Positions 3,865 to 20,726 of a DNA stretch of 40,052 nucleotides are shown piece after piece (positions within the stretch are counted from its first letter, which is position 1; each line of letters begins with the position of its first letter). Origin of the DNA: Thermoplasmatota archaeon (GTDB lineage Archaea; Thermoplasmatota; E2; DHVEG-1); assembly GCA_030601705.1 (NCBI GenBank), contig JAUWBM010000013.1, forward strand, positions 1 to 40,052, written 5' to 3'. The translations under genes were made by a program, and so were the position numbers. The notes beneath the pieces were generated by a model. The model did not search any database and had not been told where the DNA came from. It saw nothing but the letters and a program-made list of their open reading frames with translations.

Positions 3865-5202
3865 ATGAGAGGGATACTTAACAAAAAACGTTGTTTAATC
3901 ATAATTGTTTTAGGACTGTTAACAATGAACCTTTGTTTACCACTAGGAAATAGCAGTGATGGTGCAGAAATCGTAGATTTATTTATACATACTCCAACTG
4001 GTGAATCAATCGTTAGATATGATAACCCTGTTTGGATTAGAGGAATATGGCATTATGCAAACATTACCCTAAATGTTGAAGCCAACAAGGTTTCAATTAT
4101 TTTTTATCATGGTGATACTCCTCTCCCAATTGGAGATAGAGATGAAACCAATTACTATAACTGGAAATACGATCACGGGAGTTGGTGGGATGTTCAACAT
4201 GATTCTAGATATATAGAAAATGATTACTGCGATCATGATATTGACTTTTATTCTTTTTACATCGGGATAGATCAATATGCCGAGTCGGGTAATTGGACTC
4301 TGGTAGTATTAATTGACGATGAGCAACTACTTTCCAAGCGTGTTATTGTTGACAAGGGGGTGAGTTCCCTTGTTTTAAGGTCAGTACCAGTTACTCTTAG
4401 AGTAGAACCTTTTACAGAGGATGATTTCATATCGGAAGAAAAGTTTATTGTTGAAAATAAAGGGAATGTACCATTAAGATTATCGATAAATTATGGCAGC
4501 TATAATAACATATTTTCTACGTTGGATTTTAATGAGATCCTTAAAGTCGATCAGATAAGAGGGTATAGTATATTGGTGCATTCTAAATCTAGCTGGAAAC
4601 CAGGAACAATTACAATTAAAAGTGGAGAGGTGAGTGTAACAGGCGAGATAGATTATGTGATACCTCCAAAAAATGATGTTAGTCTGATTCCATCAAATCT
4701 TTCTCTTGGGCTAGGTATAACTGTTTTTATTGGACATAGTGGTTACGAACTTGAACAACTAGCAAATGATATAGCTTTTCAGTACATGAAAAATCTAGAG
4801 ATCAAGCTAGGTGAAACCAAGGATGTTTTCGCTTATATTAGTGGAAAAGGAAATATAACTGTGGATATAACTAGTAAAAACCTTAAAATATTAAAGATAT
4901 TTGGCAAAGGTGTTGAAGTTAAAACTCCTTTTATCGTGAGATCTAATAATACTTCTGAGTACCCTATCACTATACAGGTCAGAGGTATTGTTGCAAATAC
5001 CACTGCTTTCCTTTATTATTATCTAGAAATAGGAGGAAAAACCCAGACTTATACCACTAAAATAAATGTTGGTCCCCCTTCATCACAAGTAGAGGACACA
5101 ACATCTATCATCATGTCTATTACAGCAATGATTGTGACAATATGTATCGTTCTTTCTATAGTACTTATCATACAAGTTCAGATAAAACATAGAAGAAAAT
5201 AA
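3865..5202 (+). CDS. Membrane-anchored extracellular protein, paralogue B1
   Basis: N-terminal signal (KKRCLIIIVLGLLTMNLCLPLG), C-terminal TM plus basic tail (…VGPPSSQVEDTTSIIMSITAMIVTICIVLSIVLIIQVQIKHRRK); homologous along its length to the ORF at 6785-8137. Confidence 0.85.
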   Translation: MRGILNKKRCLIIIVLGLLTMNLCLPLGNSSDGAEIVDLFIHTPTGESIVRYDNPVWIRGIWHYANITLNVEANKVSIIFYHGDTPLPIGDRDETNYYNWKYDHGSWWDVQHDSRYIENDYCDHDIDFYSFYIGIDQYAESGNWTLVVLIDDEQLLSKRVIVDKGVSSLVLRSVPVTLRVEPFTEDDFISEEKFIVENKGNVPLRLSINYGSYNNIFSTLDFNEILKVDQIRGYSILVHSKSSWKPGTITIKSGEVSVTGEIDYVIPPKNDVSLIPSNLSLGLGITVFIGHSGYELEQLANDIAFQYMKNLEIKLGETKDVFAYISGKGNITVDITSKNLKILKIFGKGVEVKTPFIVRSNNTSEYPITIQVRGIVANTTAFLYYYLEIGGKTQTYTTKINVGPPSSQVEDTTSIIMSITAMIVTICIVLSIVLIIQVQIKHRRK

Positions 5203-6516: not shown

Positions 6517-6784
6517 TCTTTTTAATATAAATAAATATCCAAGGAGAGTATAATAAGGTATTATGCAAATTCATATTTTAGAAAAGCAACAATCTGCAGA
6601 TACTTTGTATGCCCCCTCTTTTTCAGTTCTAATGTAAAAGAGATGTCAAATTAACAGGGATGAGCTTCATCTCTTATAACTCAAATTTCTCAAGGTACTA
6701 TTTAAGAGAAAGACTTTAATAGACTGATAAGGATAAGAAATACAGTCGAAGATATTGTATAATTTAGTACGGCGAGGTGATGGG

Positions 6785-8137
6785 CTGAAGCACAAAGATT
6801 GTATGATTGTATTTATAGTATTTATAATAGGTTTATTACCACTTTTTTCACCTGTCTCAGCAGATAATGATTTAACTCTAAACATACATATAATTGGAGA
6901 AAAAACACAAACACGTTTTGGCGACCCAGTGATTGTTGCCGGTATTTGGCATCATATAAATGTAACAGTAGAAAACCAGGATTTCCAGAAATTAAGTCTT
7001 AAATTCTACAATGGCGAGTCTATACCTACTGAAGGAGAGAGGAACGCAACCAACTATTACGAGTGGAAGTATGACGAAAACAGTCAGATGCCATGGATAG
7101 ACGTGATAGAATACGATGGTCGTACATACATAAGCAATGCTAGCTGTCTGAAAAATAACAAACTCTACAGTTTTTGTATAGGAATAAGAGATACTTTGCC
7201 TGACACTGCATATTATCATGAAAACTGGACGTTAGAAGTGTACAAAGATGAAGATAAACTATATTCTGGAAATATAGTTGTTGAAAAACCAACGGTTGCC
7301 CTTGCGAAAAGCCATGCCGATTTAATTAAATTCAATGTAGAGCCTTTTACTAAGATGGATGCTTCTGGTGATGATTTTTTCATAGCTAAGAACACAGGCA
7401 ATATCCCTTTAGATATAAATATTGATTATGGGGCATATAATGATATTATTAAAGAAACTAGTTTTAACATGACATTTTCTCCAGATAGTACTAATGAGTA
7501 TAATATTACGGTACAATCGGAATCTTGGACGCCCGGAATTATAGAGATGTCAGGAACCATAAGTGGATCAGTTAATGGTTCTTATATTATAACTACTGCC
7601 GTTATTACCTTTGAAACATCCATTAAAATGAATGCACCCAACTTGAAAATATTTGTAGGTCATAACACCTATGAAATAACCGAAATCAAAGATACCAATA
7701 TCGTTTTCCAGCACGTAAAAAACATCGATATGAGTGAAGGTGAAGTGAAAGATATCAATGTCTATATTTCTGGAAATGGAACAATGACTTTAGATATCTG
7801 GAGTGATGAAAAAAACGTAACCATATTAAATATATTCAGTAAAAACCAGGAGATAGAAACACCCCTGACTATAAACTCTGTGGATACCTCAGAATATGCT
7901 GTAACTGTTAAAGTTGAAGCCATTAGAGAAAACAAAATTGGATTCCTTTATTATAATCTCAAAATGGATGGGGAAACACAGACTTTCGCCACTCAGATAA
8001 CTGTCGGTCCACCTTCATCACAAGCGGGGGGAACAATATCAATCAATATGTCCACTATGGCAATAATTGTAATAATATGTTTTATCCTTGTTGCAGGATA
8101 CATGATCTCCACTCACATAAAACATAAGCGGAGGTAA
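6785..8137 (+). CDS. Membrane-anchored extracellular protein, paralogue B2; apparent CTG start
   Basis: Homologous to B1 (DPVIVAGIWHHINVT…NYYEWKYD; …VGPPSSQAGG… TM + KHKRR). GAGGTGAT-GGG-CTG AAG CAC AAA GAT TGT ATG ATT gives a normal signal peptide (MKHKDCMIVFIVFIIGLLPLFSPVSA). The ORF-track start (TTG 6755) lies upstream of the Shine-Dalgarno sequence. Confidence 0.8.
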   Translation: MKHKDCMIVFIVFIIGLLPLFSPVSADNDLTLNIHIIGEKTQTRFGDPVIVAGIWHHINVTVENQDFQKLSLKFYNGESIPTEGERNATNYYEWKYDENSQMPWIDVIEYDGRTYISNASCLKNNKLYSFCIGIRDTLPDTAYYHENWTLEVYKDEDKLYSGNIVVEKPTVALAKSHADLIKFNVEPFTKMDASGDDFFIAKNTGNIPLDINIDYGAYNDIIKETSFNMTFSPDSTNEYNITVQSESWTPGIIEMSGTISGSVNGSYIITTAVITFETSIKMNAPNLKIFVGHNTYEITEIKDTNIVFQHVKNIDMSEGEVKDINVYISGNGTMTLDIWSDEKNVTILNIFSKNQEIETPLTINSVDTSEYAVTVKVEAIRENKIGFLYYNLKMDGETQTFATQITVGPPSSQAGGTISINMSTMAIIVIICFILVAGYMISTHIKHKRR

Positions 8138-8146
8138 AATAATTAC

Positions 8147-8836
8147 ATGAAGAAAGGAGGGGTACTGTTATCACTGGCGACTGTAACAATGATTTTGTTT
8201 ACTACCTTTCTTTTCATTGAAGCAAGTGCAGGTGAAGCAGGAGTAGGAGTGCTGAATGTTCCACCAAAATACAGCATGATACGCGTGGTACAACAGGACA
8301 AATTCATAAGAGTATATCTCACTATTTCTGATTACAACTCTTGGGATGACATATATACTGTTAATGTGACCTTAGAAGATTACGGTTTGGAAACAGCTGA
8401 ATTTCTTTTTAAACAATATGAAGATACAATTTCTTATGAGAAGATAAATGAATTTAGCGAGACATCAAAAGAAAACAATTTACTGGTAAAAGAAAAATGT
8501 TCCTACAATCACTCTGATGAAAAGGAGACAGTTGCAGATAAATGCAATCTTGAATTACTATTTGTTTTTCATAAAACCTGGTTTACACGTTTAAACATAA
8601 TCGTCGCTGACATAGAGGGATCAACAGCATCGACACATATAGATTACAATGCTGAGGAGACGATGAGAAGTGGCAACATTATTATGATTCCTTGGTTACA
8701 TGAACCAATACGTGTAGTAATACCGTCATACCTTTTGAATTTACTGGCAGTGATCGCTGGATTAATCGGCGTCATATTTTGTGTTAGAAAGATGGATAGA
8801 ATAAAAATAAAAAGAGTAGCTTATGAAAAAGGATAG
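8147..8836 (+). CDS. Bitopic membrane protein with signal sequence and C-terminal TM (C)
   Basis: Hydrophobic N-terminus LLSLATVTMILFTTFLFIEASA and C-terminal TM LLNLLAVIAGLIGVIFCVRKM; starts 10 bp after B2. Confidence 0.75.
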   Translation: MKKGGVLLSLATVTMILFTTFLFIEASAGEAGVGVLNVPPKYSMIRVVQQDKFIRVYLTISDYNSWDDIYTVNVTLEDYGLETAEFLFKQYEDTISYEKINEFSETSKENNLLVKEKCSYNHSDEKETVADKCNLELLFVFHKTWFTRLNIIVADIEGSTASTHIDYNAEETMRSGNIIMIPWLHEPIRVVIPSYLLNLLAVIAGLIGVIFCVRKMDRIKIKRVAYEKG

Positions 8837-10124
8837 ACGTATCCCCCCATGTTTTCCATGTTATTTCTTTATGTTTTTTACCATGTTCATCTCTGTTAAA
8901 TTTGTATTTATATTCTTTTTCAGAGCTGCCTATGAACCAAGTTTCATATTTGAATTAACACCTTTTTATATTTTATCAGGATTAAATAATTTGCAGTTGC
9001 TGGTTTTATCTTTTATTGTGATCGTTTTTGATACCTTTCTTCATGTGAAGATCACGAGAAGGAATCTCATGTACTCTTTCCTGCCGACAGCGGTAATGCT
9101 ATGTGGCTTAGGATTAGCAATTATTACGAGGGAAATGACCGTTTCAAATCTTTTTCATTACCTTATATTTGGTTGTTTATTAGTTGTTGTTCTTATAGAT
9201 CATAAGCACTTTTTGGAGTTTTCAGAGATGCTTGTTTCTACTGAAAAAGAATCGATTGAAACTGAAATTTTAAAAGAAAAACCTGTTATTGTAAAACCGC
9301 AACCTAAAGTCATGAAAGCTTCAACTGACCACAAACTCTCTCGTTCATCTTTTTCTTTTATAAATCATCTATTTTTATTAGCTGAAAAAGCTAAAAAAAC
9401 GACCGGCAAAATTACAAGAAAAGTTAAAATTAAATCTATTAAACAACCTAAAATAGCATCCATTAAAGTTGAAAATGCAGATAAAGACAATGATAAAAGT
9501 GTCGATGAAAAAGTGTTGATATTTAAGGAAAATTTTTCTAAACTTGAGGCTAAAACCAGAAATAGACTACAAAGAGCGCAAGATATTTTAAATGAATTTG
9601 AAAGAAGAACAAAAAAATTAAGACACTTAGAAGAGGAGATCGAAAAGAGAAGAAAGAACCTAGCAGAACAAGAGAGGATTTTCAAGGATCAATTAATTTC
9701 TTCTGTTGGTATAAAAAGTAGTTACAATTTATCTTCTATGTCGAAGGATAAAGTTGTTTCTGATGTTCATATGGATAAGGAAAGTAAAGAAGATCAGAAA
9801 GTTCTTGATGGAATAAATGATTGTGCTGCAATTATTCAAAGAGGCATCTTGAAACAAGTCAACAATTCTTTTGCAGAGTTGATCGGTTTTGATACTGAAA
9901 AGCTTAGGAATAAAAGTTTGTTTAATTTTATTGCACCTGAGGGACTTGTAGATCTTGAGAAATATTATCTAGGTAGATTAAAAGGAAGCGATAAATATAC
10001 CTACGAAACTGTTTTTTCAACTAAAGACAATAGCAAGATAATAGTAGAGGTAAGTATTAAACCAACTACTTATAATGGTAAGAAAGCTGAAATTGCAATT
10101 ATTAAAGAACTGAAAAATAAATAA
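8823..10124 (+). CDS. Multi-TM N-terminus + coiled coil + C-terminal PAS-like sensor protein (D)
   Basis: About 4 hydrophobic helices in the first 140 aa, heptad-rich KE segment, then a PAS-like segment (INDCAAIIQRGILKQVNNSFAELIGFDTEKLRNKSLFNFIAPEG…VSIKPTTYNGKKAEIAIIKEL). Overlaps the C gene end. Confidence 0.75.
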   Translation: MKKDRRIPPCFPCYFFMFFTMFISVKFVFIFFFRAAYEPSFIFELTPFYILSGLNNLQLLVLSFIVIVFDTFLHVKITRRNLMYSFLPTAVMLCGLGLAIITREMTVSNLFHYLIFGCLLVVVLIDHKHFLEFSEMLVSTEKESIETEILKEKPVIVKPQPKVMKASTDHKLSRSSFSFINHLFLLAEKAKKTTGKITRKVKIKSIKQPKIASIKVENADKDNDKSVDEKVLIFKENFSKLEAKTRNRLQRAQDILNEFERRTKKLRHLEEEIEKRRKNLAEQERIFKDQLISSVGIKSSYNLSSMSKDKVVSDVHMDKESKEDQKVLDGINDCAAIIQRGILKQVNNSFAELIGFDTEKLRNKSLFNFIAPEGLVDLEKYYLGRLKGSDKYTYETVFSTKDNSKIIVEVSIKPTTYNGKKAEIAIIKELKNK

Positions 10125-18776: not shown

Positions 18777-18849
18777 GTTAAGATTGGCCAAGAGTATACA
18801 TTTATATAGAAAAACCCTATTTCGACTTCCTACATTTGAAGGTGATTAT

Positions 18850-19071
18850 CTGGGAAACATTAAACAAACTCATATAAAAAACGCTGCGATATATCTAGTG
18901 AAAGAATATCCAGATCAGTTTAAATATGATGATTTTCAGCACAATAAAGAAAAAGTTGAGGAACTGATTGAAGTTAGCAGCAAATTAATGAGAAATAAAA
19001 TAGCTGGTTACATTACTAGATACTTAGCGTCTCGGAACAAAAGGCGAAACAATCAACCTATTTCTGAGTAA
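18850..19071 (+). CDS. rps17e: Ribosomal protein eS17 (S17e); apparent CTG start
   Basis: [L/M][61 protein letters not shown] is eS17. The position equivalent to the initiator Met of MGxI[KR]QT is CTG, preceded by AAGGTGAT-TAT. Confidence 0.9.
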
Positions 19072-19141
19072 TAACCCAAAATTTATTTTATGCAGGCAAA
19101 TCTTCGATTAGGGTGAGTTTATAGAAAAAATCAATAATGCC

Positions 19142-19806
19142 TTGACTGATCTACAACAAGGAAAGTTTGTTTTAGTGTATGATAGTGAGAGTAGAGAGGG
19201 TGAAACAGATTTTGTTATGGCTTCTCAATTTGTCACACCTGAATCAATAAAAAGAATGAGACAAGATGGCGGTGGACTCATATTTCTTATGACCTCAAAA
19301 GAAGTTGCAGATCAATTACAAATGCCATTTTTAACTAATTTATATTCCGATGTTAGTGATAACTACCCTGTTTTAAAAGAACTTGTCCCAAATGATATAC
19401 CCTATGATACAAAATCCTCGTTTTCCCTTTATATAAACCATAGAGAGACGTTTACTGGTATAACTGACAATGATAGAAGCCTTACCATGCGGAAATTTGC
19501 TGAATTAATTAAAAGAATCAATAATCTTGATAGTGACTTGTCAATTAAAGAATTTGGTAGGGAGTTCAGATCCCCTGGGCATGTCCCTATATGTGTAGCT
19601 TCTGAGACTCTTCTTAACGAACGAAAGGGCCATACTGAGTTTGTCATTGCGCTCATGCAAATGGCAGGTCTTGTTCCTGCTGGAAGCGGTTGTGAGATCA
19701 TGGGGAATAATGGCAAAGCTTTATCCAAGGAAGATACTATGAGATATGCTGAAAAAAACAATTTTGTCTTTTTAGAAGGAAGAGAAATTGTAAAGACGTG
19801 GAAACA

Positions 19807-19819
<13 letters not shown>
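19142..19819 (+). CDS. ribB: 3,4-dihydroxy-2-butanone-4-phosphate synthase (true start possibly upstream at ATA 19121)
   Basis: KFVLVYDSESREGETDFVMASQFVTPE, PNDIPYDTKSSFSLYINHRETFTGITDNDRSLT, EFRSPGHVP, NERKGHTE. See start-codon finding. Confidence 0.92.

Positions 19820-20726
<907 letters not shown>

Follow-up and report, generated by a model that had tools for sequence, protein, structure and literature searches.

The surface protein gene B2 very probably starts, judging from its sequence context and its orthologues, at the CTG codon at position 6785. It appears to be one of a few genes in this archaeal family at which near-cognate start codons anchored by a Shine-Dalgarno (SD) sequence are tolerated, and an initiator tRNA carrying C33 is a plausible enabler of such starts. 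We give this reading a probability of about 0.85. The window, a stretch of 40,052 nt, is contig C82 of an archaeal MAG of 2.84 Mb in 194 contigs, and three of its genes have a start codon one base off AUG, namely CTG in B2 and eS17 and ATA in ribB. In all three an SD, either GAGGTGAT or GGTGA(N), lies at a functional distance, 3 nt before the codon, and the comparisons made for each gene place the start of the orthologues at the same codon. The features are listed in Table 1.

Table 1. Features of the B2, eS17 and ribB loci and of the initiator tRNA, with the start codons of B2 orthologues and of eS17 in other families.
Feature	Location	Strand	Comment
TATA-box-like stretch AAAGACTTTAATAGACT	6709..6725	+	Upstream of B2; putative promoter element
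Shine-Dalgarno GAGGTGAT of B2	6774..6781	+	GAGGTGAY or variant, same place in orthologues
CTG start codon of B2	6785..6787	+	Aligned codon in 18 family genomes
B2 surface protein, 450 aa	6785..8137	+	Orthologues at 36-66% identity
Internal ATG of B2	6803..6805	+	Rejected as start
B2 paralogue, ATG start	3865..5202	+	40% identity
Shine-Dalgarno AAGGTGAT of eS17	18839..18846	+	
eS17 ribosomal protein, CTG start 18850-18852	18850..19071	+	PF00833
ribB (DHBP synthase), ATA start 19121-19123	19121..19819	+	PF00926, 1.5e-53
Initiator tRNA-Met (own genome, G000; L010)	C86:6908-6983		Loop CCCATAA
B2 aligned codon ATG			G002, G004, G007, G010, G017, G021, G043, G058
B2 aligned codon GTG			G055, G056, G059, G060
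B2 aligned codon TTG			G023, G053
B2 aligned codon CTG			Own genome, one assembly
B2 aligned codon ATA			G001, single-contig genome, same genus
B2 aligned codon ATT			G022
B2 aligned codon ACG			G020
eS17 start TTG, other families of class			f2, f3, f5, f7, f10
eS17 start GTG, other families			One f2 genome, one f10 genome
eS17 start ATG, other families			f4, f6, f8

The arrangement described in the original prediction can be read directly at B2, where the SD is followed by the spacer GGG (6782-6784) and the CTG, and the gap has the same 3 nt as in eS17, whose leader is AAGGTGAT-TAT-CTG. The codons that come after the B2 CTG are AAG CAC AAA GAT TGT and the ATG at 6803. The B2 protein reads as a short, charged N-terminus, a hydrophobic stretch to PVSA in the manner of a signal peptide, a body rich in Asn-X-Ser/Thr sites and a C-terminal membrane anchor (IIVIICFILVAGYMI...) that ends in KHKRR. 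A search against Pfam gave no family above the cutoff for B2, and Adeno_GP19K, a weak match below the cutoff, was rejected; the named relatives come from uncultured Thermoplasmatota (e.g. CP070724.1 and CP070798.1). Many orthologues carry a AAACTTTAATAGAC-like stretch at a distance comparable to that of the TATA-box-like stretch of B2. The paralogue of B2 has no recognisable SD at its start region, and this ATG-started gene fits with the SD being required for weak codons. Shortly downstream of both surface-protein genes, the window encodes a protein with a C-terminal PAS domain (8823-10124).

The decisive evidence for a start at 6785 is the comparison of orthologues, the GGTGATN3CTG motif alone being weak. 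Homologues of B2 came from the 46 genomes of this family and from elsewhere in the order; those orthologues whose 5′ end could be read were compared, and 18 family genomes were tabulated. An SD-like stretch precedes the aligned codon at the same place, and the start column on which the CTG falls contains ATG (8), GTG (4), TTG (2), CTG (1), ATA (1), ATT (1) and ACG (1). The four non-canonical codons are all one-base neighbours of ATG, an outcome with a chance of about 5e-4 at the given base composition by our own estimate, made without a tool. Also, upstream starts are excluded in five relatives by in-frame stops near the SD: G002, G004 and G020 have a TGA that overlaps the SD or directly adjoins it, a TAA stands just ahead of it in G043, and another TAA lies six codons ahead of the start in G022. 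Two of these genomes, G020 with ACG and G022 with ATT, are devoid of any canonical start codon in the interval between stop and start. Because of the upstream stops in relatives, the TTG at 6755 is not the ancestral start.

Could B2 instead begin at the internal ATG, with the CTG being incidental and the SD badly placed? ATG is the commonest start codon and a protein begun at 6803 would retain the hydrophobic signal sequence, but we consider this improbable, since 21 nt separate the SD from this ATG and the codon aligned to it in other orthologues is TTG, GTG, ATT, TTA or ATC, whereas the codon at SD+3 is ATG, GTG or TTG in 14 of the 18 orthologues. Moreover, the codons between the CTG and the internal ATG show synonymous changes (CAC/CAT, TGT/TGC), and orthologues mostly preserve the K and C of KxC; both speak against a start at 6803. 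Even less probable is that the CTG, at least that of B2, is an ATG misread in sequencing or assembly. It is true that the CTG is a single base in one MAG and that three congeners have ATG or ATA at this start; however, ATA, ATT, ACG and TTG arise independently at the same codon in relatives and the eS17 CTG is present in 45 separate assemblies. Taken together, the orthologue column and the stops near the SD make an error and both alternative starts unlikely, and the original prediction was right in ranking TTG 6755 and ATG 6803 behind the CTG. The B2 start codon seems to wander between ATG and codons one base away from it, its fast turnover suggesting weak constraint.

The CTG start of eS17 is real and family-wide. 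In each of the 45 family genomes having the gene, at least one copy begins with CTG preceded by GGTGAT or something very close to it, and the C of this CTG appears to be under selection because the neighbouring synonymous positions vary freely. In the phylum beyond the class, the model match of eS17 begins at position 1 among the matches listed, and the five matches inspected start with ATG. Several family members harbour two or three eS17 genes per genome, at least one with CTG and the others with ATG or TTG (loci L066, L273 and L274 in G005; L058, L286 and L287 in G044; L074, L280 and L288 in G050); across the family, ATG or TTG is the usual start of additional copies. Just 5′ of the eS17 SD (window 18810-18840; also L056-L085) there is conserved sequence similar to TTCCRGCYCCYTACA, which may be a transcription start region.

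Why has eS17 retained a CUG? The lack of any change in this codon suggests selection for a start that is weak or regulated, and the codon might be retained because it keeps expression low or under control. The more general idea that weak starts are selected, with near-cognate codons throttling or regulating genes as AUU does in bacterial infC, is in our view tentative and clearly short of an even chance. The eS17 CTG is invariant in 45 genomes though the TTG of other families is just one transition away, as such selection would predict; yet the B2 codon is unconserved (8/18 ATG) and behaves there as if drifting, and neither a regulator nor a regulatory structure came to light.

In the case of ribB, the leader reads TAG-GGT-GAG-TTT-ATA, with GGTGA at 19112-19116 and an in-frame TAG (19109-19111) immediately 5′ of the SD. 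In most of 26 family genomes ribB starts with ATA or ATT, and one has ATC; 14 of the 26 lack any ATG, GTG or TTG in the stretch from the in-frame stop upstream to codon 6. The exceptions within the family have an ATG at +1 or +2 (G016, G022, G056 and G060) or just 5′ of the SD (G017 and G019). Outside the order ribB starts with ATG: in family f7, 13 of 13 genomes have one no more than a codon away from the aligned position. Together with a cytidylyltransferase-like gene and lumazine synthase (ribH), ribB makes up a small riboflavin cluster downstream of eS17 (window 19121-20726).

Is CUG then a regular start codon in this lineage? The original prediction had suggested so, and a genome-wide scan for the shared motif did not bear this out: GGTGATN3CTG has 11 matches in the 2.84-Mb assembly vs 4 for the reversed pattern, and context suggests a gene start only for B2 and eS17, the remaining nine lying inside longer frames or heading short ones that do not exceed 43 aa. 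A survey covering 693 kb from the own genome and 400 kb from each of two congeners, plus pattern searches, likewise gave no excess of CTG at the SD spacing close to where alignments begin (3 seen vs 2.7 expected among 636 supported frames in the three congeneric genomes). By both counts, regular use of CUG as a start across the genome is not supported. SD-only statistics were too noisy and the search for genes without a canonical start returned many shadow frames and 5′-UTR alignments; the survey retained only candidates with an orthologue start. Unavoidable near-cognate starts were found in 3 of 190 sampled genes in the family vs none of 101 in f7, which served as control; the difference is not significant, the samples being too small to prove one. 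Scattered cases are a G001 gene with ATA whose G002 orthologue has ATG (the protein continues KTIYFITGN), a further G001 gene with ATA and one G002 gene with ATT. What stands of lineage-level CUG use is that near-cognate starts exist and that the eS17 CTG is fixed. What marks the lineage is that a few genes use near-cognate codons of several kinds (CTG, ATA, ATT, ATC and ACG), and CTG is fixed only in eS17.

Inspection of the initiator tRNA and of aIF1, which the original prediction had pointed to, revealed a difference in the former only. The initiator tRNA has the archaeal A1-U72 end and a GGG/CCC anticodon stem, with C33 replacing the near-universal U33. By a 13-base motif, on which the comparison rests in most genomes, C33 occurs in 40 of the 46 family genomes, that is, in 40/40 of those where the initiator tRNA was found, and elsewhere in the order in two f2 genomes and one f3 genome. 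The U33 motif is found in 13 genomes that belong to the class but not to the order (f4, f6, f7, f8 and f9), and in none of the order. C33 is not confined to the order, because G080 (f11) also has the motif. In three genomes (the own one, G001 and, as U33 control, G074), ARAGORN calls a tRNA-Met where the motif lies. The aIF1 gene has the usual length and the CxxC/CxC motifs and nothing unusual by inspection, and it was set aside as a possible cause of relaxed starts. The 16S 3′ end was not found in the own assembly, in which two GGATCACCTCC matches gave no Rfam rRNA match.

A mechanism can be proposed in which the strong SD and the 3-nt spacer would position the 30S P site on the B2 CTG, and initiator Met-tRNA would begin there with two of the three codon bases paired, the B2 protein thus probably beginning with Met. 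Most likely, positioning by the SD is precise enough for Met-tRNAi to start despite one mismatch, as suggested by the conserved anatomy. C33 in the initiator tRNA would perhaps loosen start-codon discrimination; the start positions, their conservation and the tRNA change are observed, and the link between C33 and near-cognate starts is a correlation. On a larger scale, the whole order may have relaxed its start rule via the U33-to-C33 change, with CUG, AUA, AUU, AUC and ACG as standing starts of SD-anchored genes and CUG fixed in eS17, a possibility that we place slightly below even odds.

The process described here is of a known kind; what is new is the family-wide conservation, the use of AUA and AUU and the change in the initiator tRNA. 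Common gene finders accept ATG, GTG and TTG only, and genes with near-cognate starts may be missed or mis-started by them in this lineage. Reconstructions of start switches depend on annotations that seldom allow other codons. The start codons of archaea are AUG, GUG and UUG according to a review (PMC7531240). As in archaeal GUG and UUG starts, initiation here would be guided by the SD and carried out by Met-tRNAi on a codon that differs from AUG in a single base, but the codons are CUG, AUA, AUU, AUC and ACG and their positions are conserved between species. Belinky et al. (2017) counted 2 AUG-to-CUG and 1 AUG-to-AUU switches per 61,358 ancestral AUG starts in prokaryotes (PMC5622118). Unlike those rare starts, CUG is fixed here at one gene over a family of 45 genomes, and AUA and AUU prevail at ribB. 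Bacterial infC, which starts with AUU, is similar in that a translation gene is kept on a near-cognate start, but here the gene is eS17 and the machinery archaeal; infC is a parallel with no relationship implied. Animals also use CUG as an alternative start. The animal initiator tRNA has C33 in place of U33 (PMC9023262), just as in this archaeal family, where the C33 sits in a tRNA with the archaeal A1-U72 end and GGG/CCC stem. Sulfolobales tRNA-Cys with C33 is on record (PMC7668247), and no earlier case of C33 in an archaeal initiator tRNA was found in the open-licence papers searched. A natural archaeal case with a matching tRNA change would make the control of start stringency by the anticodon loop testable, and it would bear on why C33-bearing animals use CUG starts.
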